Positions 312 to 20,015 of a stretch of 20,696 nt of DNA are shown here, piece by piece. The notes under the pieces are model-generated. The model ran no database searches. It saw nothing but the letters and a program-made list of their open reading frames with translations, and had not been told where the DNA came from. Made by a program: the position numbers and the translations under genes. Numbering within the stretch: position 1 is the first letter of the stretch; the number at the start of each line of letters is the position of its first letter. The stretch lies in IMG/VR virus record IMGVR_UViG_3300017743_004982, positions 1 through 20,696 of that record; one strand, written 5' to 3'. The stretch comes from a virus.

Positions 312-560
312 ATGAAACAATTACTTTATTTTAGTGCTCCTTGGTGTGCACCATGTAAATCTTTTGGACCTACTATGGATAGAATAGCTGGTGAAGGTAT
401 TCCTGTGTCAAAAATCAATATTGATTATGATGCCACGGCACCTGCAAAATATAGTGTTAAAAGTGTTCCTACAGTAGTACTAGTTCAGAATGGACAAGAA
501 GTTAAACGGTTTGTAGGAGTAAAGTCTCATCAAGAAGTAATGAATTTTTATAATGGGTAA
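312..560 (+). CDS. Thioredoxin-like protein
   Basis: An 82-aa minimal thioredoxin fold. The redox site WCAPC is at residues 11-15 (Cys12 and Cys15), and the cis-proline that packs against it is in SVPTVV (Pro53). It is shorter than bacterial TrxA (about 105 aa), as is common for phage thioredoxins and glutaredoxins. It probably reduces disulfides in the host cytoplasm. Family knowledge suggests electron donation to ribonucleotide reductase or another reductive enzyme, but no such partner is in the window. The start ATG follows an A/T-only leader with no Shine-Dalgarno. The last 8 bases overlap the queD-like gene, implying coupled expression. Confidence 0.9.
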   Translation: MKQLLYFSAPWCAPCKSFGPTMDRIAGEGIPVSKINIDYDATAPAKYSVKSVPTVVLVQNGQEVKRFVGVKSHQEVMNFYNG

Positions 561-1017
561 ATTTCAATCAAGTAAAGTATTTGACGGATTTAGTACAGTA
601 TTTCGTCAATGGAAAGCAGAAGATACACACTGTAAATTTCTACATGGTTATGGAGTTTCGTTTAAAGTTTATTTTGAAGGTGATTTAGATCATAGAAATT
701 GGGTCTGGGATTTTGGTGGTATGAAGCGTGCTAAAACTCAAATTGATGGTATGTCTCCTAAAGTATGGATGGATTATATGTTTGATCACACTTTAATTTG
801 TGCTGAAGATGACCCAGCCTTACCAGAATGGGAAAGATTAGATGAGGAAGGTATAATTCAACTAAGAGTTGTTGAAGCTACAGGAGCAGAAAAATTTTCT
901 GAATATATTTTTAATAAAATTAATGATTTTGTTTTAGAAGAAACTGAAGGTAGAGTAAAAGTTACTAAAGTTAAGTTTGCTGAACATGGTAAAAATGCTG
1001 CCTATTATGTTGCCTGA
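553..1017 (+). CDS. queD: QueD-like 6-carboxytetrahydropterin synthase / PTPS-family protein
   Basis: A 154-aa member of the 6-pyruvoyltetrahydropterin synthase fold. In queuosine and 7-deazaguanine synthesis, QueD converts dihydroneopterin triphosphate to 6-carboxytetrahydropterin. Visible marks are the candidate catalytic Cys27 and His31 in CKFLHGYG, the segment VWDFGGMKRA (about 51-60), the DH pair at 78-79 (LDH equivalent), and a glutamate-rich stretch EATGAEKFSEYI like the ExPTxE pterin-binding region. Oddities: the usual LHGH zinc motif reads LHGY (Tyr33), and the upstream FxAAH histidine is replaced by FRQWK, so two of three expected zinc ligands are missing. His26 might substitute. 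It lies directly upstream of queE and shares the window with folE, which supports a pathway role. It could be a divergent PTPS homolog with a changed reaction. Confidence 0.82.
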   Translation: MGKFQSSKVFDGFSTVFRQWKAEDTHCKFLHGYGVSFKVYFEGDLDHRNWVWDFGGMKRAKTQIDGMSPKVWMDYMFDHTLICAEDDPALPEWERLDEEGIIQLRVVEATGAEKFSEYIFNKINDFVLEETEGRVKVTKVKFAEHGKNAAYYVA

Positions 1018-1816
1018 TCCAAAATTATGGAAAAAAACAGCCCCTTTAGGTCGTATTGAAGATTATGATAAAGTCCTTCCTGTATTAGAAGTTTATCGTT
1101 GTGTTCAATCTGAAGGTAGTAGATTTGGACGCCCTACAATTGCTGTAAGAACTACAGGATGTACTCATCGTTGTTATTTTGGTGAAGGTGGATGGTGTGA
1201 CAGTTGGTATACAAGTGTTCACCCTGAAAAAGGTACTTTTACATTTAATGACATTATAAAAATTTATGATGAGAATCCTCATATTAAAGAAATGATGTTA
1301 ACAGGAGGTAGTCCAACTATGCATCCTAAACTAGTAAATGAAATAACTCATTTTGCTCATGAAAGAGATATTCTTATTACTATTGAAACTGAAGGAAGTC
1401 ATTTTTTAGAAACTGATTATCCAATAGGTCTTCTCTCAATTTCACCTAAGTTTAGTAATAGTGTTCCTGTTGTAGGAGCCCTTACACCTAATGGGACAGT
1501 TACAAATGAAAAGATGATTAAAACACATAATCGTCTTCGTCTTAATACTGAATCAATTAAATCTAGCATTAATTATCATAATGATTATCATTACAAACCT
1601 GTTTGGGATGGTACTGAAGAAGGTCTCGCTGAAATTGAAGCTTATAGACAAGAACTTAATATTCCTAAAAATAAAACATTTGTGATGCCTGCTGGAGATA
1701 CTAGAGAAACTTTAGTAGAGATGTATCCTTTAGTATTTGAAATGTGTGCTGAAAAAGGTTATAATATGACTGGTAGAGATCATATTATAGCATTTGACAC
1801 TAAAAGAGGTGTATAA
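1007..1816 (+). CDS. queE: QueE-like 7-carboxy-7-deazaguanine synthase (radical SAM)
   Basis: Radical SAM enzyme expected to convert 6-carboxytetrahydropterin to 7-carboxy-7-deazaguanine. From the ATG at 1007 it has 269 aa. The N-terminal substrate region reads VYRCVQSEGSRFGRPT, a variant of the QueE SxQGEG motif. Three cysteines follow at about residues 52, 56 and 64 (CTHRCYFGEGGWCD), and MLTGGSP (about 96-102) is the GGEP-like SAM-binding motif. The spacing CX3CX7C is not the classical CX3CX2C. In-frame starts also exist at TTG 977 and ATG 986 and 995. I prefer 1007 because it minimises overlap with queD (11 bases) and starts just before recognisable homology; no Shine-Dalgarno decides it. 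Coupled to queD upstream and, by TAATG, to the small ORF downstream. Confidence 0.87.
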   Translation: MLPDPKLWKKTAPLGRIEDYDKVLPVLEVYRCVQSEGSRFGRPTIAVRTTGCTHRCYFGEGGWCDSWYTSVHPEKGTFTFNDIIKIYDENPHIKEMMLTGGSPTMHPKLVNEITHFAHERDILITIETEGSHFLETDYPIGLLSISPKFSNSVPVVGALTPNGTVTNEKMIKTHNRLRLNTESIKSSINYHNDYHYKPVWDGTEEGLAEIEAYRQELNIPKNKTFVMPAGDTRETLVEMYPLVFEMCAEKGYNMTGRDHIIAFDTKRGV

Positions 1817-1989
1817 TGCCTGAAGATTATTTAGCTAAATTATGGAATTCATGGATGGAAGGTACTTTATCTCCATATGAAATTACTCAAAAAGTAGGTT
1901 TTTATGGATATAAGGTATCTATACTTTCTAAACAAAATATTGTAGTAGAAAAAACTAATGAAAGACGAGAATATCGATATTTAGGATGA
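1816..1989 (+). CDS. Small 57-aa protein, unknown function
   Basis: A short frame starting at ATG 1816, which overlaps the queE stop by one base (TAATG), and ending at TGA 1987-1989, which overlaps the next ATG (1986). The product begins MPEDYLAKLWNSW and ends with a basic, charged tail (EKTNERREYRYLG). It fills the gap between queE and the methyltransferase exactly, with coupled junctions at both ends, which is the main argument that it is real. There is no signal peptide, membrane segment or recognisable domain. Aromatic residues are frequent. It might be a small partner of a neighbouring enzyme; nothing in the sequence shows which. Confidence 0.6.
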   Translation: MPEDYLAKLWNSWMEGTLSPYEITQKVGFYGYKVSILSKQNIVVEKTNERREYRYLG

Positions 1990-2663
1990 ATGAGAAAAAA
2001 AATATCATTAATTATTTAATTGAAAAAAATAATTTTACTAAATATTTAGAAATTGGAGTAGATAATCCTATTGGGAATTTTGACCTAATCCAATCTCCTA
2101 TTAAACACTCAGTTGATCCTTGTATTGAATTTATTGATGCTATTGTAGATTATAAATACCCATCAGATGACTTTTTTTCTCTTTTGGAAAATAATCAATT
2201 AAATTTATCTTCTGATTATAAATGGGATGTTATATTCATAGATGGGTTACATATATCTACTCAAGTAGAAAGAGATTTTAATAATGCTTTAAATCATTTA
2301 TCTGAAAATGGGTTTATTTTATTTCATGATACCAACCCACCAACTTTATGGCATGCTAGAGAAGAATATTATGTTAATGGTTATCAACAACATTGGAATG
2401 GGACAGTTTGGAAAGTTATCTATAAACTTAATTCATTAAGATCAGATTTAACTATTCACACAGTTGGAGGTGTAGGATCTACTTTCAATACAATTGAAGA
2501 TGGATTACATAATGATTTAGGGTGGGGTGTATCTATAATTCAAAGAGGAGAACAAAAATGTTGTGAATTTGATAATCCTTTTTATGAATATAAAAAATTT
2601 GAAGAAAATAGAAAAAAGTATTTAAATTTAATTAATTTAGAAGAATTTTATCAAATATACTAA
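1986..2663 (+). CDS. Class I SAM-dependent methyltransferase (Methyltransf_24-like)
   Basis: A 225-aa Rossmann-fold methyltransferase. The N-terminal motif I is LEIGVDNP (about 21-28). An acidic residue after the next strand is in HSVDPCIEF. The post-motif segment is DVIFIDGLHIS, followed by a helix and FILFHDTNPP. The IDGxH...HDxxPP pattern is typical of Methyltransf_24 / cephalosporin-hydroxylase-like proteins that modify sugars or small molecules. The acceptor cannot be read from sequence: a glycan, a nucleotide or a surface component are all possible. It sits between the queuosine-type genes and the phosphoribosyltransferase, overlapping its neighbours by 4 bases and 1 base. It could belong functionally with the glycan genes at the right end of the window. 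Confidence 0.75.
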   Translation: MNEKKNIINYLIEKNNFTKYLEIGVDNPIGNFDLIQSPIKHSVDPCIEFIDAIVDYKYPSDDFFSLLENNQLNLSSDYKWDVIFIDGLHISTQVERDFNNALNHLSENGFILFHDTNPPTLWHAREEYYVNGYQQHWNGTVWKVIYKLNSLRSDLTIHTVGGVGSTFNTIEDGLHNDLGWGVSIIQRGEQKCCEFDNPFYEYKKFEENRKKYLNLINLEEFYQIY

Positions 2664-3166
2664 TGAAAGAATTAATTACATCTGAAGAAATTCAATTTCA
2701 AACAAAAATAATTGGTAAACAAATTACTGATGACCATAGAGGAGATAAAACTCCAATTGTAATGGTTGGTTTATTAAATGGTGCTTTTGCGTTTTATAGC
2801 GATTTAGTACGATCTATGCCAATTGACGTAGAATGTGATTTTATGCGCGTTAAATCGTATGTAAACCGTAAACAAGGCGATATACAAATCACTAAGGACT
2901 TAGAAACACGTGTTAAAGGAAAGCATGTTTATATTGTAGATGATATTTACGATACTGGAAATACCATGAAAGCAGTTATTGAATATTTAGAAGTTAAAAA
3001 ACCAGCTTCAATTTCAATTGTGTCTTTAGTTACTAGAGCAACATCCCCAACCCCAAAACTAAAATCATATCATGCTTTTACTATTAATGATGAATGGGTA
3101 GTTGGAATGGGGATGGATAATGAAAAAGGTCATATGAGAAATTTAACTTCAATTTGGGCTTTGTAA
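2663..3166 (+). CDS. hpt: Hypoxanthine/guanine phosphoribosyltransferase-like protein
   Basis: A 167-aa type I phosphoribosyltransferase. The PRPP-binding signature VYIVDDIYDTGNTM lies at about residues 89-102, the substrate/diphosphate loop GLLNGAF at 36-42, and the C-terminal aromatic/acidic hood sequence NDEWVVGMGMD at about 142-152 is where HPRTs contact the purine. Length and order match bacterial Hpt (about 170-180 aa). The expected reaction is PRPP plus hypoxanthine or guanine giving IMP or GMP in the cytoplasm. Next to folE (which consumes GTP) and two pyrophosphohydrolase-type genes, it would feed the guanine nucleotide pool. It starts at the stop of the methyltransferase (TAATG). 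Specificity between guanine, hypoxanthine and xanthine is not resolvable here. Confidence 0.88.
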   Translation: MKELITSEEIQFQTKIIGKQITDDHRGDKTPIVMVGLLNGAFAFYSDLVRSMPIDVECDFMRVKSYVNRKQGDIQITKDLETRVKGKHVYIVDDIYDTGNTMKAVIEYLEVKKPASISIVSLVTRATSPTPKLKSYHAFTINDEWVVGMGMDNEKGHMRNLTSIWAL

Positions 3167-3204
3167 AATTAGTTTTTATATTAACATAAAATAAGTTATA
3201 ATAC

Positions 3205-3900
3205 ATGGAAAACAAACGTAGAAAAATCCACGAGGAATTAGAAGTGGTACAAGAAGGGTTTGCTAATGGAATAGCTCCTGGTTTCCCTCTTAATATAGAT
3301 CAAAAACAAGAAATGATAGATGAAGCTACTGAAGCTTATGGTAAGTTTTTAGACGCTTTAAAGGGTGAGTGGAGGAATGACCCCAATTCAAAGGAAACAC
3401 CTAGACGTGTAGCTAAAGCATATGTAAATGATTTATGGTCAGGACGTTATACAGCAATGTCCCCTATTACTTCATTCCCTTCAGATGGTTATGATGGAGT
3501 AGTTATTGAAAGAAACATTCCATTAACCTCTATGTGTTCTCATCACCATCAAACAATTGGAGGAGTTGTTCATATTGGTTATATTGCTGGAGAAGATGGT
3601 CAAGTAATTGGTTTATCTAAATTAAATAGAATTGTAGAATTATTTGGTCGTAGAGGTGCTATCCAAGAACAATTAACTTCAGCAATACATAATGCTGTAT
3701 CTAAAATTACAGAAGGTAATTTGGGTGTAATTGTTACTATTGTAGGAACTCATAATTGTGTATCTTGTAGAGGTGTTAAACATCAAGGTGCAGCAATGGT
3801 TACTACTAAAGCATCAGGTGCTTTTAGAGATGATCAAAATAATGCTCGTAAAGAATTTTTTGATAGTTTAAAAATTAATAACGGAGGACATAACATTTAA
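3205..3900 (+). CDS. folE: GTP cyclohydrolase I (FolE, type IA)
   Basis: A 231-aa FolE with an N-terminal extension of about 40 residues. It opens GTP to 7,8-dihydroneopterin triphosphate, the first step of folate and of 7-deazaguanine synthesis. Zinc ligands are visible: Cys111 and His114 in MCSHHHQTIGG, and Cys185 in HNCVSCRG. The conserved core VIGLSKLNRIVELFGRR (134-150) followed by IQEQLT matches the family. The usual LPFxG after the zinc histidine is replaced by QTIGG, as in divergent phage forms. A 38-base A/T-rich gap precedes the ATG, with no clear promoter and no Shine-Dalgarno. Together with QueD- and QueE-like enzymes upstream it gives three consecutive pathway steps, arguing for deazaguanine rather than folate use, though folate supply remains possible. 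Confidence 0.92.
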   Translation: MENKRRKIHEELEVVQEGFANGIAPGFPLNIDQKQEMIDEATEAYGKFLDALKGEWRNDPNSKETPRRVAKAYVNDLWSGRYTAMSPITSFPSDGYDGVVIERNIPLTSMCSHHHQTIGGVVHIGYIAGEDGQVIGLSKLNRIVELFGRRGAIQEQLTSAIHNAVSKITEGNLGVIVTIVGTHNCVSCRGVKHQGAAMVTTKASGAFRDDQNNARKEFFDSLKINNGGHNI

Positions 3901-3903
3901 TTT

Positions 3904-4581
3904 ATGGATTTTAAAGAACAAATAGCAGTAGAACTAATTAAGGGATTAGGTACCCTTAATTCACTTAGAGATCGAGATCAACTAAGTATGACCCCTGAAT
4001 CAGAATGGGTTGATTTAATGGCTGATAAAATTGTAGCTAAGTTTAAGGGGGAGTATGTCCCATTTGTGAGTGAAGTAGAAGAATTTAATGCCACAATGGG
4101 AAAACCTAATAATTATGAACCTAATATACCTGAAAACAAAGCTGAATGGATGTTTGTTTACGACTTCATTCTCGAAGAACTTGAAGAATACAAAGCTGCC
4201 TGTGAAGCAGGTGATATTGTTGAGGTACTTGATGCTTTATGTGACATTGCCTACGTCTCGATTGGTAACGGAGCTATGCTTCATGGTCTTAAAGATAAAT
4301 TATGGGATGCGTATCAAGAAGTACAAGCGTCGAATATGTCTAAAGCTTGCTCAAGTGAAGAAGAAGCACAAAAAACGGTTGAAGTTCGTTCCAAAGAGCA
4401 AAATGAACCTTGTCACTACGAGAAGGTTGGAGACTATTATATTGTCTATAGAAGCCGTGATAAAAAAGTGATGAAGAATATTAACTATTTCCGTCCTAAT
4501 TTAAAACAATTCCTTCAAAAAAATAACCCATATTTTGGACATTTTGAAACCCACCCCTCAGCTGCAAAAATAAGAAAATGA
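3904..4581 (+). CDS. MazG-like all-alpha NTP pyrophosphohydrolase (PRA-PH-like)
   Basis: A 225-aa protein whose central region (about 85-147) carries the EExxE...ExxD metal-binding pattern of the MazG/dUTPase-like all-alpha superfamily: FILEELEEYKAAC, then DIVEVLDALCDIAYV (Glu91, Glu92, Glu95; Glu107, Asp110, Asp114), then a helix ending QEVQASNMSK. Such enzymes hydrolyse NTPs or phosphoribosyl-ATP to the monophosphate plus PPi. The C-terminal 75 residues (CHYEKVGDYYIVYRSRDKKV...) form a small beta-rich extension. I recall this two-part architecture from other phages, where it is annotated as phosphoribosyl-ATP pyrophosphohydrolase-like. It probably clears or remodels nucleotides, or acts on (p)ppGpp-type signals as proposed for phage MazG; the substrate is unknown. 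The gene follows folE after three bases and overlaps the polymerase by 4. Confidence 0.8.
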   Translation: MDFKEQIAVELIKGLGTLNSLRDRDQLSMTPESEWVDLMADKIVAKFKGEYVPFVSEVEEFNATMGKPNNYEPNIPENKAEWMFVYDFILEELEEYKAACEAGDIVEVLDALCDIAYVSIGNGAMLHGLKDKLWDAYQEVQASNMSKACSSEEEAQKTVEVRSKEQNEPCHYEKVGDYYIVYRSRDKKVMKNINYFRPNLKQFLQKNNPYFGHFETHPSAAKIRK

Positions 4582-6338
4582 GTTATAAAAAGTGCTATCA
4601 AGGTAAAAAATTAGGACCTAATCATTACGAAATGCACTTATGGGAAGATGATGGCCAACATCAAGTTGTTGGTTATAAAGATAAAGCCTATATTGAATGC
4701 AGTAAAGATCAGGCTACACATAGAGGCTTAAAGGGTGAATTTGTAAAACCTATAATAGATTGGAAATTCTCTAAAAACCCAGAGTATTCATCTGATAATA
4801 CTCCAGGCTTACATTTTCAAGATATGCCTCCTTATCAAAAATTCCTTATTGATAAGTATGGAACTAATGATGATCCTTCTACTACACATAAAGAAATATT
4901 TTTCGATATAGAGTGTGAAATGGGAGGAGCCCTTACAGAAGAATATATTGAATCAGCTCCAAAACCTATTACATCTATTGCTTGGTATGATAAACAAGTA
5001 GATGAGTGGGGGATTTTAATTTTAGATAAAAAACAACAACTTAATCATACTAAAGCTAAAAATAAAGAAATTATACCTTGTTCTACAGAAGTAGAATTAC
5101 TTAAAAAATTCGTAGCTAAATTTAAAGAACTTAATCCTGATATTCTTGTAGGGTGGAATAGTGATTACTTTGATATCCCCTATTTATATTATAGAATCTA
5201 CTCAGTCATAAGTAAAAAAGCAGCTAATAGTTTATCTCCTTTAGGTATAGTTAAGTCTAAAAGAGAAACTAAATTTTGGTGGAAAAAAGATCAATATGTT
5301 GATATTATAGGTGTTGAGTCTCTTGATTATATGAGATTACATAAGAAGTTTAGTTTTAGAGATGAACCTTCTTATAAATTAGATGTTATAGGAGAAAAAT
5401 ATACAGGTTTAAATAAAATTGAATATAATGGTAATTTGGATAAATTATTTGAAGAAGACATTTACACATTTATTCAGTATAATTTCCGTGATGTTGAGAT
5501 TTTAAAATTATTAGATGAAAAGTTAGAATATTTGGCTTTAACTAAAAACCTATCCCATAAAGGAAAACATAATTACAGTGAAGTTTATGCTAATACTAGA
5601 ACTCAAGATGGAGCTATATCAGCATATTTACTATCTCAAGGAATTGTTCCCCCTGCTAAAGATATAAATCCAATTCATAAGAAAAACTATGCTGGGGGTT
5701 ATTTATTTTGTCCTACCGCTGGTATCTTTAACTATATGTTTGATGAGGATTTAACTTCTCTATATCCATCTATTATTATGTCTTTGAATATTGGAAAAGA
5801 AACTTTAGTAGGTCGAATTATGATATCTCCTGAAAAATTAGTAGTTGAAGGTAAAGAAATATTTGATTGTAGACATGCTTTAAATGATCTAAAACAAATG
5901 GATCAAGATGAAAAATTAATAATTCAAAACCCACAACGTAGAACAATTGAAATGAAAATTTCTGAAATTATAAAATTAATTGAAGATAATAATTTAGCTG
6001 TTTCTGCTAATGGTGTGATGTATAGAACTGATTCAGACTCAGTACTTAAAACAATTCTTTCTAAATGGTTTGATGAAAGAGTTATATATAAAAATAAAAT
6101 GAAAGAAGCCTATACAGCTGGTAATAAAGCTCTAGGTGAACAAATGCACTTAAAACAACATACAATGAAAATTTTATTGAATAGTTTATATGGTGCTACA
6201 GCTCTTGGCAGTTTTAGATATGGTAATGTAATTTTAAGTGAATCTATCACCTTAACAGGTCAAAGAATCATCCAAGAATCAGCATTATTTGCCAATACAC
6301 ATATGAATCAAGTAATGAAAGGTAAAATACAATTATGA
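4578..6338 (+). CDS. 43: DNA polymerase, family B (gp43), N-terminal part: exonuclease plus palm motifs A and B
   Basis: 586 aa covering the N-terminal, 3'-5' exonuclease, first palm and fingers domains of a T4-type replicative polymerase. Exo I is FFDIECEM (Asp110, Glu112), Exo II is WNSDYFD (Asn194, Asp199) and Exo III is YNFRDVEIL (Tyr301, Asp305), so proofreading residues are intact. Motif A is DLTSLYPSII (391-400) and motif B is KILLNSLYG (531-539). The frame then runs about 47 residues and stops (MNQVMKGKIQL, TGA 6336-6338) before motif C. Motif C is found in a separate ORF starting at 8553. The product cannot polymerise alone; it should pair with that C-terminal piece. Fragment lengths sum to 895 aa, like intact gp43 (898 in T4). 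The stop overlaps the next ATG (ATGA). Confidence 0.95.
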   Translation: MSYKKCYQGKKLGPNHYEMHLWEDDGQHQVVGYKDKAYIECSKDQATHRGLKGEFVKPIIDWKFSKNPEYSSDNTPGLHFQDMPPYQKFLIDKYGTNDDPSTTHKEIFFDIECEMGGALTEEYIESAPKPITSIAWYDKQVDEWGILILDKKQQLNHTKAKNKEIIPCSTEVELLKKFVAKFKELNPDILVGWNSDYFDIPYLYYRIYSVISKKAANSLSPLGIVKSKRETKFWWKKDQYVDIIGVESLDYMRLHKKFSFRDEPSYKLDVIGEKYTGLNKIEYNGNLDKLFEEDIYTFIQYNFRDVEILKLLDEKLEYLALTKNLSHKGKHNYSEVYANTRTQDGAISAYLLSQGIVPPAKDINPIHKKNYAGGYLFCPTAGIFNYMFDEDLTSLYPSIIMSLNIGKETLVGRIMISPEKLVVEGKEIFDCRHALNDLKQMDQDEKLIIQNPQRRTIEMKISEIIKLIEDNNLAVSANGVMYRTDSDSVLKTILSKWFDERVIYKNKMKEAYTAGNKALGEQMHLKQHTMKILLNSLYGATALGSFRYGNVILSESITLTGQRIIQESALFANTHMNQVMKGKIQL

Positions 6339-6586
6339 ATACAAAACAAGCAATTAGAAAAGGAGTAACTGTTAAATGTAATGGTAAAACTTTAACCAAA
6401 GAAGAAATAGTTTCTAAAGGGGAAAATTGGAGTGAACACTCAGAAACCTTCTTTAGAAAAATGCTTAAACAAGGAGGAAAATTTAGCCTTAAAGGAGATC
6501 AATTTATTATATCAACTCCTGATTTACTTTTAAATAGTAAGGGTGAAATTGAATCTATATTTAAAGAAGACGAAGACGAAGATTAA
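6335..6586 (+). CDS. 83-aa acidic-tailed protein of unknown function
   Basis: First gene of the cassette between the polymerase halves; its ATG overlaps the upstream stop (ATGA). The N-terminus is basic and polar (MNTKQAIRKGVTVKCNGKTL). The middle contains FFRKMLKQGGKFSLKGDQFII, and the tail is a run of acidic residues (KEDEDED) made by a small GAAGAC-type tandem repeat at about 6567-6584. No domain is recognised. The segment KFSLKGDQFII loosely resembles RWSLEGDKVV in the 83-aa protein encoded at 13018, so the two might be distant relatives. It has no endonuclease motifs (LAGLIDADG, GIY-YIG, HNH), so it does not explain the polymerase split. Confidence 0.6.
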   Translation: MNTKQAIRKGVTVKCNGKTLTKEEIVSKGENWSEHSETFFRKMLKQGGKFSLKGDQFIISTPDLLLNSKGEIESIFKEDEDED

Positions 6587-6588
6587 AT

Positions 6589-7395
6589 ATGATTACTTCA
6601 GTTAAAATAAAAGATAATATTATTTTTGGTCAATCTACTCCCTTTGTTTTAATCTCGGGACCTTGTGTTATTGAAAATGCTGAGCATACTTTTTTTATGG
6701 CTGAGCAAATTAAAAAAATTGCAGATAAACTAAATATTCCATTTATTTTTAAAGCATCTTTTGATAAAGCAAATAGAACAAAACTAGAAAATTATCGAGG
6801 AGTATCAATAGAAGAAGCAATTAAAATTTTTACTAGAATTCGTAATGAATTAAATATTCCAGTTACTACTGATATTCATGAACCTTGGCAAGCTGATGCT
6901 CTAAAAAATTCTATTGATTTAATTCAAATTCCTGCATTCTTATGTCGTCAAACTGATTTACTAGTTGCTGCTGCAAAAACAGGACTACCTGTTAATATAA
7001 AAAAGGCTCAATTTGTAAATGGTGTTGATATGGAACGAGCTGTTAATAAAGTTATAATGTCCGATAATAATAATGTTATTTTAACTGAGCGTGGTAATAC
7101 ATTTGGATATGGTGATTATATAGTAGATATGAGAAATCTATTAGTTATGAAACAGTACGCTCCAGTTATATTTGATGCTACTCATTCAGTTCAAAAAGGA
7201 TGTTCTGGGGGTAGTAGTGGTTCTAATAAACATTTTGTAGAACCATTAGCAAAAGCTGCAGCAGCAATCGGTATAGATGGTTTATTTTTAGAAGTGCACA
7301 ATAATCCAGATAATGCCTTGTCAGATGGTACAAGTAGTATTACATTAGATAATCTAGAAAATGTTTTAGATAACATTTGTAAAGTTATCAATTAA
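6589..7395 (+). CDS. kdsA: 3-deoxy-D-manno-octulosonate 8-phosphate synthase (KdsA), metal-dependent type
   Basis: 268 aa, essentially full length for KdsA. The enzyme condenses phosphoenolpyruvate with arabinose 5-phosphate to give Kdo-8-phosphate, precursor of the Kdo sugars of lipopolysaccharide and some capsules. Characteristic segments are SGPCVIEN (23-30), FKASFDKANRTK (54-65), TDIHEPWQAD (94-103), IPAFLCRQTDLL (114-125), VNIKKAQF (135-142), LTERGNTFGYG (165-175), FDATHSVQ (195-202) and LSDGTSS (244-250). Cys26, His199, Glu235 and Asp246 occupy the four metal-ligand positions of the metal-dependent class, with spacing nearly identical to the Aquifex enzyme. Retention of the KANRTK and LCRQTDLL segments separates it from DAHP synthase and sialic-acid synthase. 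It is the second gene of the cassette splitting gene 43, followed within 10 bases by a HAD-like phosphatase. Confidence 0.95.
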   Translation: MITSVKIKDNIIFGQSTPFVLISGPCVIENAEHTFFMAEQIKKIADKLNIPFIFKASFDKANRTKLENYRGVSIEEAIKIFTRIRNELNIPVTTDIHEPWQADALKNSIDLIQIPAFLCRQTDLLVAAAKTGLPVNIKKAQFVNGVDMERAVNKVIMSDNNNVILTERGNTFGYGDYIVDMRNLLVMKQYAPVIFDATHSVQKGCSGGSSGSNKHFVEPLAKAAAAIGIDGLFLEVHNNPDNALSDGTSSITLDNLENVLDNICKVIN

Positions 7396-7400
7396 TAACT

Positions 7401-7706
7401 ATGAACATATACGTTGACATTGATGAAACTATTTGTTTCTACAAAAACAGAGAATATATCAACCCAGATTATTCAACAGCAATTCCTCATTATGAAAATA
7501 TAGAGAAAATAAATAAACTATATAATGAAGGACATACAATTACTTATTGGACTGCTAGAGGGGGTACAACAGGTATTGATTGGTATGATGTAACTAAATC
7601 TCAACTCCAAGAATGGAAATGTAAACATCATGATCTAATGGTAGGTAATAAACCACCATATGATTTATTAATTTGTGATAAAACTAAAAGAATAGAAGAA
7701 TTATGA
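7401..7706 (+). CDS. Small HAD-superfamily phosphatase-like protein
   Basis: 101 aa with a compact HAD fold. Motif I is YVDIDETIC (nucleophile Asp6, acid/base Asp8), motif II is the Thr in YWTARGG (Thr51), Lys84 in GNKPPYD is a motif III candidate, and a terminal acidic residue sits in LLICDKT (Asp93). The pattern DIDETIC...TARG...QLxxW...GNKPxYDL resembles a small family annotated as capsule-biosynthesis phosphatases or phage HAD hydrolases. It has no cap domain. Directly after kdsA, it is a candidate to dephosphorylate Kdo-8-phosphate, the job of KdsC, but KdsC proteins are longer (about 170-190 aa) and tetrameric, so this is inference. Alternatives are another sugar-phosphate or a nucleic-acid 3' phosphate. 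It overlaps the talC-like gene by 4 bases. Confidence 0.78.
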   Translation: MNIYVDIDETICFYKNREYINPDYSTAIPHYENIEKINKLYNEGHTITYWTARGGTTGIDWYDVTKSQLQEWKCKHHDLMVGNKPPYDLLICDKTKRIEEL

Positions 7707-8341
7707 AAATATTTTTAGATGCACTAGAATTAGATCAAATCAAAAAATACTCAAATATGGGTATTTTATCAGGAGTTACTACAAACCCTACTTTAGCAAA
7801 AAAACATGGGATGTTAGATGACATTGATATGATTGAAAAAATAAGAGAAGTTATGCCTGTTGGGGAAATTCATGTTGAAGCTTGGGGTAAAACTAAAGAT
7901 GAAATATTAAATAATATTACACGGTTAAAAACCCACTCAAATGACCCAGATCTAGTTTACAAAATCCCTTTTTCACCTGCTGGAATTGAAGCTTGTAATA
8001 TGGCTATTTTAAATGGAGATAAAACAAATATGCACCTTATATTTTCCCATAACCAAGCTATAATATGTGATAATGTAAATTCTACTTACATATGTCCTTT
8101 AGTAGGTAGACTTGATGATATAGGCCATGATGCATTATCATTTATATCTGAACTTACAAAAGTAATAGTTAATACTAATATTATGGTATCGAGCGTTAGA
8201 CACCCTATGCATGTTATTAAAGCATCAAAAGCCGGGGCTAATGTTATAACAGTACCTTTAAAAGTTTTAGAACAAATGTTTGAACACCCTTTAACTACAG
8301 CTGGTATTGAATTATTTGAAAAAGACATACAGTCGATGTAA
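7703..8341 (+). CDS. talC: TalC-like transaldolase / fructose-6-phosphate aldolase
   Basis: 212 aa, the length of the short TalC/FSA subfamily rather than the 310-aa TalB type. Signature GVTTNPTL is at 24-31, the Schiff-base lysine is Lys87 in VYKIPFSPAG, PLVGRLDD lies at 132-139, and VSSVRHPMHV followed by AGANVITVP is the phosphate-binding end of the barrel. The reaction is transfer of dihydroxyacetone between sugar phosphates, or reversible cleavage of fructose 6-phosphate. Phages of marine cyanobacteria carry talC to push host carbon flux to the pentose phosphate pathway. Here its neighbours are kdsA and a phosphatase, so it may instead adjust pentose-phosphate supply toward arabinose 5-phosphate. 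No isomerase for that step is in the window. Overlaps: 4 bases with the upstream gene, 1 base with the Smr gene. Confidence 0.9.
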   Translation: MKIFLDALELDQIKKYSNMGILSGVTTNPTLAKKHGMLDDIDMIEKIREVMPVGEIHVEAWGKTKDEILNNITRLKTHSNDPDLVYKIPFSPAGIEACNMAILNGDKTNMHLIFSHNQAIICDNVNSTYICPLVGRLDDIGHDALSFISELTKVIVNTNIMVSSVRHPMHVIKASKAGANVITVPLKVLEQMFEHPLTTAGIELFEKDIQSM

Positions 8342-8556
8342 TGAGTACTTTAGATCTACATGGGGTTAAGCACGCACAAGTAGAAGATACTCTGACACAA
8401 TTCTTTTTTTGGGAAAAACCTGGATGTAAAAATTATACTATTATAACAGGTAATTCTTCTGCAATGCAAAAAATTGTTTTAAATTGGCTTGATCACCATG
8501 AATATTCTTATTATATTCCAGCCCATAATTTAGGAGAAATAAAAATTAGTGAATGA
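8341..8556 (+). CDS. Minimal Smr-domain protein
   Basis: 71 aa, hardly more than a single Smr (small MutS-related) domain. Visible are the LDLHGVKHAQVED start (residues 4-16), where LDxHG is the diagnostic motif, the central YTIITGNSSAMQK segment equivalent to the family's ITGxG loop, the helix VLNWLDHHE, and the terminal strand GEIKISE. Smr domains are DNA or RNA nicking or binding modules found on MutS2 and as stand-alone proteins. The glycine-rich loop here is ITGNSS rather than the common TGKG, which could change activity. Its target is unknown. It is the last gene of the polymerase-splitting cassette and overlaps the start of the polymerase C-terminal part (ATGA). It is the only nucleic-acid-type protein recognised in the cassette. 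Confidence 0.78.
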   Translation: MSTLDLHGVKHAQVEDTLTQFFFWEKPGCKNYTIITGNSSAMQKIVLNWLDHHEYSYYIPAHNLGEIKISE

Positions 8557-9482
8557 AACAGTTAGAAACTACACCTTGGTTTATTTGTAATAAAGAAGAT
8601 ACAAATTACTGTGTATATGTTGATACAGATTCTAACTATTATAATGCTGAGCCTATGCTTAGACATCTTTACCCTAATTTTGATACCATGTCAGAAGAAG
8701 AAAGAGATGAAGCTCTTGAAAAAATTGCACTTACATATCAAGATCTAATTACCAAATCATATAATAATCTAGCTTTAGAAGCATTTAATATCAAAGATCA
8801 TAGGTTTGATATGAAAACAGAATGTATGATTCGTGCTGGTTATTTTAGGGCTACTCGTAGATATGCACAATGGATTACTAAAAAAGAAGGAGTACCAACT
8901 GATGATTTAGATATTAAGGGATTAGAGTTTATGAAAGCTAATTTCCCACAAATATTTAGTGATTTTTTTAAAGATGTTTTACAAAAAGTTATTAAAGGTA
9001 CTCCACAAAAAGAAATTGATGGGATGTTAAAAGATTTTAGATCTAAAGTTTTAGCTGATGATATGGATATTACTGTATTAGGTAATCCTACTCGTGTAAA
9101 AACATTAGATAAATATTTAGCTTCAATTCCTCGTCCCGGAGAAATGTTTTCTATTATAGCTCAAGGTGCCCCCGCACCTGTAAAAGCAGCTATTAAATAT
9201 AATGATTTACTTACATTTTGGAAACTAGACAAACAACACTCTAAAATAGTTCAGGGTGATAAAGTTAAATGGATTTATTTAAAAGATAATCCTTATAGAA
9301 TAGATGCCTTAGCATTTTTAGATTTTGATATGCCAGATAAAATCCGTACATTATTGGCTCAATATGCAGATAAAAATAAATCATTTGAAACAATTTTAGA
9401 AAGTAAATTAGCTGGGTTTTATAATGATCTAGGTTGGGATTTAAATATGAATCCATACAGAAATATGTTTTTTAATTTTTAG
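8553..9482 (+). CDS. 43: DNA polymerase, family B (gp43), C-terminal part: palm motif C and thumb
   Basis: 309 aa that complete the T4-type polymerase. Motif C, CVYVDTDSNYY, supplies the second catalytic aspartates (Asp24, Asp26). KTECMIRAGYFRATRRYAQW (about 92-111) is the KxY-type palm/thumb segment that grips the primer terminus, and the rest is thumb. The final residues NMFFNF resemble the hydrophobic C-terminal peptide with which T4/RB69 gp43 binds its sliding clamp. The clamp gene begins three bases after the stop. There is no upstream exonuclease or motif A/B; these are in the ORF ending at 6338. About 23 residues precede motif C, so the break falls in a surface-type connector. All key residues are intact in both parts, so a working two-chain enzyme is more likely than a decayed gene. 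Confidence 0.94.
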   Translation: MKQLETTPWFICNKEDTNYCVYVDTDSNYYNAEPMLRHLYPNFDTMSEEERDEALEKIALTYQDLITKSYNNLALEAFNIKDHRFDMKTECMIRAGYFRATRRYAQWITKKEGVPTDDLDIKGLEFMKANFPQIFSDFFKDVLQKVIKGTPQKEIDGMLKDFRSKVLADDMDITVLGNPTRVKTLDKYLASIPRPGEMFSIIAQGAPAPVKAAIKYNDLLTFWKLDKQHSKIVQGDKVKWIYLKDNPYRIDALAFLDFDMPDKIRTLLAQYADKNKSFETILESKLAGFYNDLGWDLNMNPYRNMFFNF

Positions 9483-9484
9483 TT

Positions 9485-10231
9485 ATGATAAATAAGAATG
9501 AACTTCAATCAACAATTGGTAAATACCATTTAAATGGATTAATTGAATCTGTTAAATGGACTATCGCAGATAACGCATTAACTGTTGATTTCCAATCCCC
9601 ATATAAAGACATGATTGGACGCGTTAATCACGCATCATTTCCATTAAAAGACGCAGAAATTGCTATATATGATACATCAAAACTAAATAAATTATTAGGT
9701 ATTACTAGTGGTGAAGTGTTTATTAATTTAACTAAACCCGAACAAGCAAAAATTTATGATAAGTTAGTAATCTCAGATTCTACATATACTCTTAATTACA
9801 CTCTTAGTGAATTATTACTAATTCAAAAAGTAGGTACTGTAGATGATCCTGATAATTATAAAATTGTTACTCAATTAGATGATGAAAGTATAAGTGCCCT
9901 TATTAAAGCACATAACGCACTTGAAAGTGATAATGTAATTGTTTCAATTGATAGAGATTTAGATGGTCAAGATATTTTAGTAATGTCTTTTGGTGATGAT
10001 CTTAAACATACTAATAAGATTGATTATCAAATGCCTTTTACTACTTTAACAGATATTAAATATGGAACTAGAATCCCATTTGATTCTAAAATGATTAAAA
10101 ATATATTAAATAATAATAAAGATGCTACACAAGCAACTATGAAAATTAGCTCTGAAGGTTTAATGAAATTTACATTTGAAGGTGAGAATTGGAATAGTTT
10201 TTATTATGTTGTGCGGAAAGCAAATATTTAA
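9485..10231 (+). CDS. 45: Sliding clamp (gp45)
   Basis: 248 aa, near the T4 gp45 length (228). Gp45 forms a trimeric ring that tethers gp43 to DNA, is loaded by gp44/gp62, and in T4 also activates late transcription. Supporting features are the N-terminal SPYKDMIGRVNHASFPLKDAE region (about 38-58), repeated beta-strand/turn pattern through both domains, and the C-terminal FEGENWNSFYYVVRKANI, which fits the final strands of gp45-type clamps. Identification rests on this pattern plus position: immediately after the polymerase C-terminal half and in the same cluster as gp44 and gp62. The T4 order is 45-44-62-regA-43; here 45 follows 43. It ends just before a 96-base gap with regulatory-looking sequence, suggesting the transcription unit may end or restart there. 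Confidence 0.87.
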   Translation: MINKNELQSTIGKYHLNGLIESVKWTIADNALTVDFQSPYKDMIGRVNHASFPLKDAEIAIYDTSKLNKLLGITSGEVFINLTKPEQAKIYDKLVISDSTYTLNYTLSELLLIQKVGTVDDPDNYKIVTQLDDESISALIKAHNALESDNVIVSIDRDLDGQDILVMSFGDDLKHTNKIDYQMPFTTLTDIKYGTRIPFDSKMIKNILNNNKDATQATMKISSEGLMKFTFEGENWNSFYYVVRKANI

Positions 10232-11102: not shown

Positions 11103-13017
<1,915 letters not shown>

Positions 13018-13018
<1 letters not shown>

Positions 13019-13269
13019 TGAAAGAACAACAAGAATTCCTAGAATTAATAGCAACAAGAGTTCCCCCTGGTGATCGTTGGTCACTAGAGGGGGACAAAGT
13101 TGTCCATAAGTCTCTTACTGAAGCTTTAGAAGCATGGTTTGCTAAAACTGGTCAAAAAGCCCAATTTAGACTTGCTCCTTTAGAAGGAAAACTTTATGTT
13201 ATACGTACTGAAGAGGTAGAAGTTAAAGTTGAACCTCCTAAGAAGTTTAACATATATGGAGACTATTAA
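13018..13269 (+). CDS. 83-aa protein of unknown function downstream of groEL
   Basis: 83 aa with an ATG that overlaps the groEL stop by one base (TAATG), so translation is probably coupled. The N-terminal part is helical and acidic (KEQQEFLELIATRV). Next comes PPGDRWSLEGDKVVHKSLTE, a helix EALEAWFAKTG, and then two beta strands (AQFRLAPLEGKLYVIRTEEVEV) with a Pro/Lys/Tyr-rich end. No known family is recognised. The WSLEGDKVV piece loosely resembles FSLKGDQFI in the protein at 6335. There are no cysteines and no membrane segments. Context hints at a chaperonin accessory or an unrelated passenger gene; neither is shown by the sequence. Confidence 0.65.
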
Positions 13270-16447: not shown

Positions 16448-17443
16448 GTGAAAGACTTAATTTGCATAACAGCACATTGTCCTAATACTGAAAAAAGAAA
16501 AATATTACTTGATTTAGTTTTAGGGTTACAACCAATTAGAGATGACTTTGATATTATGGTTGTAAGTCATACCCCTATTACATCGGATGTACAAGAAAAA
16601 GTAGATTGGGCAATCTATGATAAAGATAATGAATTATTAACTGAATGGAAGTATCAAAATTCTCCATGGTTTCACCCTGAAAATAAACATATTCAATCTA
16701 TCTTTTTTGGAGCTGGAAACACTTACCTTCCAGTACATAAACAATTAATTACTGGATATTCCTTAGCTAAAACTTTTGGTTATGAAAAAATTCATATAAC
16801 TGAATATGATGCTTATTATAAAGATTTTACTGAATTTTATGATAATTCTAAGGTTTTAGATGATTACGATGCTGTATTATATAAAAAACCTAATGGTTAT
16901 GGGGAAATTAATATTGAATGGGGATTAGGATGTTTTCATGCTGCTAAAATTTCTTCTTTAGATGAAAGAGCGTTTAATTATACTAGTGATTCTATAAAAG
17001 AAGAATTAGAAAATGCTTCTATTAAAACTACTGAAAAAAGAACCGAAGATATATATACAGCAAATAATAATAAAGTTTTATTTAAGGACCATAAACTTCT
17101 TACTCAGAATGGCAATCAAATAAGGTTAGTTAATTTTCATGCTTTAGATCTAGATATGCAATGGGCTGTTCCTGTTTATGATCCAAAAATTAATCAAATT
17201 GTATTTGTAGGGTGGAATGAATCATCAAATAAACCTTGTAATGTAACTGTTATTATTAATAATTCTCGAGTTTTGAATTTCCCAAATCTTAAAAAATTAC
17301 GTTGGTTTATAGAACCTCTTGGATCCCCAGAAGAAATATCAGATATTACTATTCTAATAAATAATAAATTAAGCCGACATATTCATCTCCACCCAGATAA
17401 TATAGAAGATTTTAAATATTATAACTTTATCAAAGATGACTAA
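16448..17443 (+). CDS. Glycosyltransferase-like protein (GT-A type)
   Basis: 331 aa with GTG as the likely start (16448), four bases after the previous stop; the next in-frame ATG would remove the first strand. The opening ICITAHCPNTEKRKILLDLV and then DIMVVSHTPI resemble the first beta-alpha unit of nucleotide-sugar transferases, with HITEYDAYYKDFTEFY (about 116-131) as the central acidic region where a DxD-like motif would bind metal and UDP-sugar. GLGCFHAAKISSL may be part of the acceptor site. The C-terminal third (about 235-330) is a separate beta-rich region. The product has no membrane segment. It overlaps the aminotransferase gene by 8 bases and is the first gene of the glycan-type block. 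Sugar and acceptor unknown. Confidence 0.62.
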   Translation: MKDLICITAHCPNTEKRKILLDLVLGLQPIRDDFDIMVVSHTPITSDVQEKVDWAIYDKDNELLTEWKYQNSPWFHPENKHIQSIFFGAGNTYLPVHKQLITGYSLAKTFGYEKIHITEYDAYYKDFTEFYDNSKVLDDYDAVLYKKPNGYGEINIEWGLGCFHAAKISSLDERAFNYTSDSIKEELENASIKTTEKRTEDIYTANNNKVLFKDHKLLTQNGNQIRLVNFHALDLDMQWAVPVYDPKINQIVFVGWNESSNKPCNVTVIINNSRVLNFPNLKKLRWFIEPLGSPEEISDITILINNKLSRHIHLHPDNIEDFKYYNFIKDD

Positions 17444-18581
17444 AAAAATAGATTTATTTAAAGTTTTTATGGCACCTACAGCTGCTGAAGAAGTATCAAA
17501 AGTTCTTAATAGTGGTTATATTGGCCAAGGACCTAAAGTTAATGAGTTTGAAAATCAATTAAAAAATCATTTTAACCATGATTATATTCAGACTGTAAAT
17601 GCGGGTACATCAGCATTGCATTTAGCCTTACATTTATTGAAATCTCCTGATTCTCAATGGCCTGGATTAACCTCAGATGATGAGGTTTTAACTACTGCTA
17701 TGACTTGTACAGCTTCAAATTGGCCTGTATTAGCTAATGGTTTGAAATTAAAATGGGTTGATATTGATCCAAAAACATTAAACATGGATCTTGATGATTT
17801 AGCTCGTAAAATTACTCCTAAAACTAAAGTTATTATTTTAGTTCATTGGGGTGGGTATCCTATTGATTTAGATCGAATAAAACAAATTCAAGATAAAACA
17901 TACCAAATGTATGGTTTCAAACCTGCTATAATTGAAGATGGAGCTCATTCATTTGGTTCAAGTTATAAAGGTAAACCTATTGGTACCCATGGTAATTTAA
18001 CTATGTTTTCATTACAAGCAATTAAACATATTACTTCAATTGATGGTGGTTTATTACTTTCACCTCATAAGAAATTACATGATAGAGGTAAATTAGCTCG
18101 TTGGTATGGGATAGACCGTGATGGAGATAGAAAAGATTTTCGTTGTGAAGCTGATATCGAAGAATGGGGATTTAAATTTCATATGAATGATGTTTGTGCT
18201 ACTGTTGGAATTGAAAACTTTAAACATTTAGACGAAATTGTTTCTAAACATAAAGCAAATGCTGCTTATTATGATAAAGAATTACAAAATATTCCTGGGG
18301 TAACTCTCCTAGAACGCAAACCAGGTCATGATTCTGCATTTTGGATTTATTCTATGTTAGTAGAAAATCGTCCTGGTTTTTATAAGTGGATGGATGAGTG
18401 TAATATTACAGTATCTCAAGTTCATGAACGAAATGATAAACATACTTGTGTAACTGAATATCGTTCTCATCTCCCAACATTAGACAAAATTATTAAAAAT
18501 ATAGTTTCAATCCCTGTTGGTTGGTGGATAAGTCAAGAAGAAAGAGAATATATAGCAGATTGTATTAAAAAAGGGTGGTAA
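17436..18581 (+). CDS. DegT/DnrJ/EryC1/StrS-family PLP aminotransferase
   Basis: 381 aa, full length for the family. Typical segments are GYIGQGPKVNEFE (28-40), VNAGTSALHLAL (54-65), DGAHSFGSSYKGK (168-180) and the PLP-binding lysine Lys197 in FSLQAIKHITSIDGG. A conserved aspartate (Asp168) contacts the PLP ring nitrogen. These enzymes put an amino group on keto sugars, usually nucleotide-linked, to make amino sugars for lipopolysaccharide, capsule or S-layer glycans. The C-terminal part (SQVHERNDKHTCV...) departs from the usual VHYPPIHLQ pattern, so the substrate may be atypical. It lies between a glycosyltransferase-like gene and a DUF1919-like gene, and upstream of a GNAT gene; aminotransfer followed by N-acetylation is a common sugar pathway. 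Confidence 0.92.
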   Translation: MTKKIDLFKVFMAPTAAEEVSKVLNSGYIGQGPKVNEFENQLKNHFNHDYIQTVNAGTSALHLALHLLKSPDSQWPGLTSDDEVLTTAMTCTASNWPVLANGLKLKWVDIDPKTLNMDLDDLARKITPKTKVIILVHWGGYPIDLDRIKQIQDKTYQMYGFKPAIIEDGAHSFGSSYKGKPIGTHGNLTMFSLQAIKHITSIDGGLLLSPHKKLHDRGKLARWYGIDRDGDRKDFRCEADIEEWGFKFHMNDVCATVGIENFKHLDEIVSKHKANAAYYDKELQNIPGVTLLERKPGHDSAFWIYSMLVENRPGFYKWMDECNITVSQVHERNDKHTCVTEYRSHLPTLDKIIKNIVSIPVGWWISQEEREYIADCIKKGW

Positions 18582-18582
18582 A

Positions 18583-19551
18583 ATGATTGAAATTACCCAA
18601 GCTACATATGGAGGAAGAATTCATTATACTGCTAAACAAGAGGTAAACACTCCACTTCAAGTAATTCTTAAAGATAAGAATTTAGAAGGAGAAATTTACA
18701 TAATGTCTCATAATAATTTATCTTTTACTGATTATTCATTCTCAGTATCTTCAGTAGTTTTACCTTTTTTAAAATCCCCTTATTTAGAAATTACTTTAGG
18801 TTCTCAGACCACATCTTATCCTTTTAATTTTGATAAAGGACCTTTAAATAATTTTTCTATAATATCAAATTCGTGTTTAGGTTGGAGAACTTATGAAAAA
18901 TTTAATTCTTCTTATAATTCTCCTACTATTGGTAATTTAATTTTAGATGATTTAGAATATTTAAGATTTTGTGAACACAATGAAACTTATTTAAATGCTG
19001 AAATGGTATTTGGAGAAAGCAAAGGTAATATAAATTTTAAAAATAGTTGTGGAAATATTAGAGTTATTAATGATGAAGCTGATATACCTGATAATTATCC
19101 TATTAGTCATCATTTAGATTTAGAAATTCATTGGATACATACCCATCCAAGATCTAAACTTACTTTTAAAGATAATATCTATCATTATGTAGAATTTAAA
19201 GACCAAATAATTCCTTTATCAACATTTAAAGAAAAATGGATTAGAAGAATAAATAGAATTAAATCAACAGAAAAAATATTTATTTGGTCTTCTTCTGAAT
19301 TATTTAATGCTCATGGTAATTGGGAAAGAAAACAAATTATTGATAGATTTAAATCACTCCCAGATAGAAGTATTTTTCTTACTGAACGAAAAGAAGAAGC
19401 ATTTGAAGATGATTTACATATAGTTAAATATATTCCTAAATGGGAAGGAAATTCTCAATATAAAAGAGATTCATCAGGGGGAATGTTATGGAATGATCAA
19501 TTAGCTAATGCACAGATTATTCACGATATAATTATTTCAAAATTTATATAA
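18583..19551 (+). CDS. DUF1919-like protein with N-terminal beta-rich extension
   Basis: 322 aa. From about residue 90 the protein shows NFSIISNSCLGWRTYEKFN, YNSPTIGNLIL, DLEIHWIHTHP and KEKWIRRINRI, which match the order of motifs in DUF1919 proteins found in exopolysaccharide and capsule loci. The first 90 residues are beta-rich with Thr/Ser/Leu strands (IYIMSHNNLSFTDYSFSVSS) and could be a carbohydrate-binding or structural module. Overall it would act in the cytoplasm on a glycan or its precursor; no reaction is established for DUF1919. The start ATG follows the aminotransferase stop by one base, and the stop overlaps the GNAT start. A C-terminal SSGGMLWNDQLANAQIIHDI segment is also reminiscent of the family end. 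Confidence 0.72.
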   Translation: MIEITQATYGGRIHYTAKQEVNTPLQVILKDKNLEGEIYIMSHNNLSFTDYSFSVSSVVLPFLKSPYLEITLGSQTTSYPFNFDKGPLNNFSIISNSCLGWRTYEKFNSSYNSPTIGNLILDDLEYLRFCEHNETYLNAEMVFGESKGNINFKNSCGNIRVINDEADIPDNYPISHHLDLEIHWIHTHPRSKLTFKDNIYHYVEFKDQIIPLSTFKEKWIRRINRIKSTEKIFIWSSSELFNAHGNWERKQIIDRFKSLPDRSIFLTERKEEAFEDDLHIVKYIPKWEGNSQYKRDSSGGMLWNDQLANAQIIHDIIISKFI

Positions 19552-20015
19552 TGAATTTAAGACCTTTAACTGAAGGTGATTTACCTTTTTTATTAGAAAT
19601 TAGAAATGATGATTCCACAAGATGTAATTTAGAAAATAATTCTAAATTTACTTTAAAAGAATCTCTAGAATGGTTTAGGCAAAATAAACCTAAATGGTAT
19701 ATTATAGAGGCATATAAAGTAGTAACAGAACAAAAATTAATCCAAATGGATTCTGTAGGCTATTTTAGAACTAATGGTGGTGAAGTTGGTTGTGATATAC
19801 ACCCTAATTTTAGAAGACGTGGTTATGCAAAACAGGCTTATGAAACTTATCTTGAAGATAAAGAATATGCTTCATTATGGGTTTTTGAGGATAATTTTGC
19901 AAAAGAATTATATAAAAAATTAGGTTTTTACTATACCCAAAAAAGTAAAATAGTTAGAGAAAGAAAATATTTACAAATGGAATGGATATCAATTGAATCA
20001 ATGACTTATGGATAA
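19551..20015 (+). CDS. GNAT-family N-acetyltransferase
   Basis: 154 aa with the complete GNAT fold. The first strand and helix are NLRPLTEGDLPFLLEIRND (2-20). The acetyl-CoA pyrophosphate loop is VGCDIHPNFRRRGYAKQAYE (79-98), containing the RxxGYA signature. A terminal conserved region (ASLWVFEDNFAKELYKKLGFYY, about 106-127, cited in part) carries the NxxAxxLYxKLGF pattern that closes the CoA site. It transfers acetyl from acetyl-CoA to an amine; next to a DegT aminotransferase, an amino-sugar is a plausible acceptor, like WecD or PseH, but a ribosomal or host protein target cannot be excluded. It overlaps the preceding ORF by one base and the following gene by 8 bases. Confidence 0.88.
   Translation: MNLRPLTEGDLPFLLEIRNDDSTRCNLENNSKFTLKESLEWFRQNKPKWYIIEAYKVVTEQKLIQMDSVGYFRTNGGEVGCDIHPNFRRRGYAKQAYETYLEDKEYASLWVFEDNFAKELYKKLGFYYTQKSKIVRERKYLQMEWISIESMTYG

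Follow-up and report, generated by a model that had tools for sequence, protein, structure and literature searches.

Organization of the split gp43 locus

The DNA considered here, IMG/VR virus record IMGVR_UViG_3300017743_004982, is a metagenomic fragment of 20,696 bases (the window) in which gp43, the replicative family B DNA polymerase of T4-type phages, is encoded by two open reading frames (ORFs), 43A and 43B, that are separated by five other genes (Table 1). An earlier note, based on the sequence alone, had assigned motifs A and B to an ORF ending at 6338 and motif C to an ORF starting at 8553, and these coordinates are exact. Motif A (FDEDLTSLYPS), motif B (KILLNSLYG) and the exonuclease residues are found in 43A, and motif C (VDTDS) in 43B, so that the hallmarks of a family B gp43 are all present across the pair. 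The two ORFs, which occur in every member of the clade described below, depart from the usual single polypeptide, although this is not a strict requirement for gp43 because the split form of phages 25 and 44RR is known.

Alignment with intact gp43, as the note had proposed, revealed complementary halves: on the phage gp43 profile phrog_262 (856 positions) 43A covers 23–567 (E 3e-115) and 43B covers 565–844 (E 4e-43). Their summed length of 895 aa (586 + 309) also fits an intact gp43, as the note had claimed, being comparable to the 848 aa of the fused protein of Microcystis phage Mel-JY01 and the ∼900 aa of the RB69 enzyme. The break does lie between motifs B and C, and its position can now be given more exactly. 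43A ends 47 residues past motif B and 43B starts 23 residues ahead of motif C, which places the break in a loop at RB69 ∼609–614, between the helix that follows motif B and the motif C strand, ∼20 residues upstream of motif C.

Table 1. Features of the window at and next to the split gp43 genes
Feature	Coordinates	Strand	Product and basis of assignment
43A	4578..6338	+	586 aa; N-terminal part of gp43: N-terminal domain, 3′-5′ exonuclease, palm motif A, fingers, motif B
C0	6335..6586	+	83 aa; function not assigned; commonest gap resident (116 loci)
kdsA	6589..7395	+	KDO-8-phosphate synthase; NF003543 355.9 bits (cut-off 242), TIGR01362 344.3 bits (cut-off 314); variable cargo
HAD	7401..7706	+	HAD-type phosphatase-like protein; phrog_1238, E 1e-23; variable cargo
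talC	7703..8341	+	TalC-like transaldolase/fructose-6-phosphate aldolase family; Pfam TAL_FSA, E 1e-31; phrog_440; variable cargo
Smr	8341..8556	+	Smr-like protein, 71 aa; Pfam Smr 24.6 bits, just under cut-off 25.7; gap resident in 32 loci
43B	8553..9482	+	309 aa; C-terminal part of gp43: motif C, remaining palm, thumb, C-terminal tail
43B N-terminal arm	8553..8588	+	MKQLETTPWFIC; specific to the two-chain form
gp45 candidate	9485..10231	+	candidate sliding clamp; weak family match, name rests on position

43B begins with a short N-terminal arm of the pattern MKxLExTPWFIC, in which P8 is present in 139 of 139 sequences, T7 and I11 in 137, and W9 and E5 in 129; the distance from the 43B start to motif C is likewise constant, at 23 aa in 137 of the 139. 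The spacing between the motif B glycine and the motif C aspartate is 66–115 residues (median 72) in the two-chain form, the extra length including the arm, versus 52 residues in all five fused relatives measured. Conserved in the two-chain form and missing from the fused proteins, the arm is the best candidate for an element that docks the chains. The 43B ATG overlaps the preceding stop codon by 4 nt (ATGA) in 98 of 147 loci and lies within 10 nt of it in 131, suggesting translational coupling, which is likely to adjust the ratio of 43A to 43B.

Distribution of the two-part gp43

The search of related metagenomic phages called for in the note, carried out as two scans with the halves, a profile scan and a scan with a distant member, returned the same junction, with both halves in order, in 149 locus copies (deduplicated by sequence, a few near-identical ones remaining), and an unsplit version in none of the clade. 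In none of the 277 loci with 43B, which represent 158 distinct sequences, does its open frame extend more than 24 residues upstream of the start. The kdsA-HAD-talC version recurs in six further contigs from separate metagenomes, and the same break is found in five contigs outside IMG/VR that were binned into metagenome-assembled genomes (MAGs; loci L342, L343, L344, L346, and L347). Several of the MAG bins with split contigs belong to Flavobacteriia, which hints weakly at the host. A quick maximum-likelihood tree places all split members in one group (support 100), apart from the fused Mel-JY01 type. Judged from these sequences, the clade is a large one, made up of uncultured T4-type phages that are mostly marine and always make gp43 as two proteins; no isolate closer than ∼35% identity to the window polymerase was found.

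Conservation and predicted structure of the two chains

The exonuclease and polymerase residues, described in the note as intact in both ORFs, are invariant in relatives apart from a single motif C gap. D110, E112, D199, D305, D391, K531, N535, Y538, and G539 of 43A are present in 60 of 60 relatives, and in 43B the motif C residues D24 and D26 are retained in 62 of 63 (the gap being in the other one) and R102, R103, and Y104 in all 63. Median ratios of nonsynonymous to synonymous substitution (dN/dS) of 0.25 for 43A and 0.235 for 43B place the halves under strong and equal purifying selection (∼0.24). Protein distances of 43A and 43B covary closely (r 0.87, slope 0.97), and the correlation of 43A distances with those of other core genes of the same loci (the gp45 candidate, gp44, GroEL, and folE) is weaker (0.37–0.72). 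In each of 14 relatives of 50–170 kb a single 43A and a single 43B are the only matches to a family B polymerase; a second complete gp43, which the note had named as evidence against its proposal, was therefore found in none of them.

AlphaFold2 monomer models of 43A (predicted local distance difference test, pLDDT, 86.5) and 43B (pLDDT 70) superpose on RB69 gp43 at 3–614 (Z 36.6) and from 603 or 621 to 901 (Z 15–18.4), respectively, and together cover the RB69/T4 gp43 fold over its full length. Hidden Markov model searches of PDB sequences gave a matching division, 43A aligning with RB69 92–609 and 43B with RB69 from 607/608 on. Model certainty is lowest at 43A 371–393 (the motif A strand) and at 43B 1–30 (the motif C hairpin) and 85–124. 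These low-certainty strands are the ones that meet in the palm, and the models thus suggest that the palm would need both chains.

A probable two-chain polymerase

Because the catalytic residues are conserved, selection on the halves is equal, their mapping on RB69 is complementary, the arrangement is lineage-wide and no second gp43 was found, it is very probable that 43A and 43B form a working gp43-type polymerase whose chains are joined non-covalently. The replicative enzyme would thus consist of two separately made polypeptides held together by non-covalent contacts. From 43A would come the N-terminal domain, the exonuclease, the half of the palm with motif A, and the motif B-bearing fingers; 43B would complete the palm with its motif C half and add the thumb and C-terminal tail. 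Both genes lie in one unidirectional run, in which translational coupling may adjust the chain ratio, and the 12-residue arm of 43B may dock the chains. Since no splicing would be needed, the gap behaves as an ordinary gene boundary, gaining and losing short genes.

Several points weigh against this proposal. It rests on sequences and on monomer models; the low pLDDT of the palm strands could instead stem from shallow alignments; and a second polymerase could sit outside the 14 long contigs, which may be incomplete. Damaged copies also occur: 43B is in three pieces in L136 and 43A in two in L055, both frameshifted, and in L126 the 43B frame seems to shift by 1 nt after the arm and before motif C (∼13040–13100; the same in L127). 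Either sequencing error or decay may account for the copies in L126, L136, and L055.

Such broken copies are what might be expected if the split polymerase were dead or decaying and another polymerase copied the genome. This is improbable, however, given the strong purifying selection, the invariant catalytic residues, the retention of the split genes across a deep clade and the lack of any other gp43 in the 14 long contigs.

A slightly smaller chance still is given to the possibility that the halves are joined during or after expression into one chain, whether through programmed frameshifting, an RNA intron or split inteins that splice in trans. There is precedent in the split-intein gp43s broken at motif C in the T4 relatives Aes508, PA5oct, and MIJ3, and in L185. 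However, the 47 residues after motif B and the 23 before motif C leave no room for an intein, there is no Cys/Ser..HN junction, and the gap is filled by coding genes, each of which has its own start and stop. Frameshifting could not span gaps of 0.2–5.9 kb, and where the genes overlap the open frames share only 7–28 nt, with no common slippery site seen. No intein residues or remnant were detected at the 43A and 43B ends in the window-clade junctions read, no homing endonuclease or intein in the window, and no group I or II intron (Rfam) in the window or seven relatives. That the break descends from the intein site at motif C was also considered and is not directly supported, the break being ∼20 residues upstream of that site.

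Assembly artefact or chimera, to which the window as a 20.7-kb metagenomic fragment might seem open and which the note had named beforehand as fatal to its proposal, can practically be discounted because independent contigs carry the same junction, namely the 149 locus copies, the kdsA-HAD-talC version in several separate metagenomes and the five MAG contigs outside IMG/VR.

Relationship to known split polymerases

Split forms of gp43 are already known, both in Aeromonas phages 25 and 44RR2.8t and in intein-split versions at motif C. The 43A and 43B proteins of phage 25 co-purify and are polymerase-active (PMC2988022), and in 25 and 44RR2.8t, as in the window clade, a T4-type gp43 is encoded by two genes with motifs A and C on different chains. 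Thus, while conservation, selection, RB69 mapping and the lack of a second gp43 support in silico the note's proposal of a working polymerase with a palm composed of two proteins, the separation of motifs A and C onto different chains is not in itself new. The break in 25/44RR precedes motif B and falls in the fingers (498 + 391 aa in 44RR; phrog_2062/1918), whereas that of the window clade follows motif B; the 43A of Aes508 also ends before motif B. Furthermore, the 25/44RR gap is occupied by either a seg homing gene or a spacer that is not translated, whereas that of the window clade holds variable cargo and no mobile element.

The split-intein gp43s of Aes508/AS-gz, PA5oct/MIJ3, and Campylobacter phages resemble the window clade in having a break near motif C and a gene between the parts, and a split intein has been described in the divided PolB of Pseudomonas phage MIJ3 (PMC6892783). 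These gp43s come with both intein halves (N and C) and a VSR-type homing endonuclease and should give one spliced chain, whereas the window clade has neither intein halves nor a homing endonuclease. As their breaks lie ∼20 residues further on and their inteins are kept, the window clade is not simply a split-intein form. In L185 (6001–10084), a split intein interrupts gp43 at motif C and a VSR-type endonuclease-like ORF lies between the parts, an arrangement comparable to that of Aes508 and MIJ3.

The closest isolate polymerase is that of Mel-JY01 (PP395634), with 33–35% identity. This phage shares the gene order gp43, clamp candidate, clamp loader with the window clade, although its gp43 is a single chain with the 52-residue spacing between motifs B and C and without the arm. 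In LR756508 (L147; 2–6885), from a metagenomic huge phage, gp43 is broken at a similar place, with inteins inside motif B and motif C. Its 43A tail may be an intein remnant, and its gap holds two paralogous genes without known function, a cytidine-deaminase-like gene and one other gene; no relatives of its 43B were confirmed in IMG/VR. A family B polymerase of two polypeptides is also described for Methanothermobacter thermautotrophicus PolB in PMC7776575 (citing Kelman 1999); this archaeal enzyme is of unrelated origin.

No description of an intein-free split between motifs B and C was found in the part of the literature and phage records covered, most subscription papers (e.g., Petrov 2010) lying outside it. 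New features are the position of the break, the 43B arm absent from fused relatives, and the gap as a variable gene slot (0–5.9 kb).

Gene content of the 43A-43B gap

Between 43A and 43B there are exactly five genes, as the note had counted, all on the same strand and each touching or nearly touching the next. Its names for four of them, kdsA, HAD, talC, and Smr, hold to differing degrees, kdsA being true by two equivalog cut-offs, the TalC-like protein falling below the NCBIfam equivalog cut-offs and the Smr-like protein scoring just under that of Pfam, although LDLHG and ITG..N.GEI motifs can be read in the latter by eye. C0 has no match among annotated phages and no confident match in Pfam, PHROG or NCBIfam; among the overlap-class loci scanned, only L114 has it, at a site ∼7.6 kb upstream of 43A. 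Pfam names suggested for the small gap ORFs had low scores, all of them below cut-off, and were treated as noise.

The note's suggestion that metabolic cargo is fixed within the replisome gene is contradicted by quick turnover. L010 and L011, 91% identical to the window in 43A, lack kdsA, HAD, and talC, and 22 of the 147 loci compared have no gap gene at all, with the ATGA overlap or near it; in the others a gap of 0.2–5.9 kb is filled with co-directional genes. Further gap residents are a DUF6165 gene (45 loci) and a mannose-6-phosphate-isomerase-like cupin (25 loci), and rarer cargo includes a dTDP-sugar epimerase, glycosyltransferases, an aminotransferase, and sulfotransferase-like, tryptophan-halogenase-like, and methyltransferase-like genes. 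On the quick tree, at least five or six changes are required to account for the absence of cargo, and the cargo has therefore come and gone; the tree gives no direction, and either the ATGA overlap or C0 may have been ancestral. As the note had stated for the window, no mobile enzyme was recognized at the break in any gap examined in the clade, nor a homing endonuclease among the 39 gap gene clusters (20 representatives by Pfam, the rest by eye).

The 43A-43B junction exceeds 600 nt in 57% of loci, compared with 15% and 14% for the adjacent junctions downstream and upstream, respectively, and is among the most variable of the often-sampled core-gene junctions. Some queE/folE junctions are as variable, and the gap thus behaves like an ordinary, rather open gene boundary. 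A more far-reaching interpretation is an ancient, lineage-wide heterodimeric polymerase with an evolved docking arm, the gap serving as a gene-exchange slot. Under this interpretation, which is tentative and for the present somewhat doubtful, the conserved sequences on either side of the gap, at the 3′ end of 43A and the 5′ end of 43B, could provide homology arms, by means of which co-infecting phages would swap small genes, often surface-sugar ones, inside the replisome operon.

Neighboring genes

The gp45 candidate follows 43B in 147 loci and keeps its position in Mel-JY01 and LR756508. Further downstream (11103–13018), complete GroES-like and GroEL-like (540 aa) genes stand side by side, and are adjacent in 137 related loci. 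PTPS/QueD-like, radical-SAM (QueE-like), and folE genes at 553–3900 are probably for 7-deazaguanine synthesis, possibly for DNA modification. A second glycan-type block at 16448–20015 comprises an unassigned 331-aa gene, a DegT-like aminotransferase gene, a likewise unassigned 322-aa gene and an acetyltransferase gene with weak PseH similarity; relatives carry genes like these inside the 43A-43B gap.

Implications

The window and its relatives suggest that a replicative polymerase can have its catalytic palm divided permanently between two proteins throughout a large and widespread phage lineage, the two-chain state being kept without mobile DNA and at a break point unreported in the papers and phage records found. 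Annotation pipelines and phage trees based on PolB may miss such phages or score them as fragmentary. The 43A/43B pair offers a natural test of whether a split enzyme is stabilized by the 43B arm, whether translational coupling replaces covalent linkage, and whether a core gene, once split, provides a safe site at which genes can be captured.

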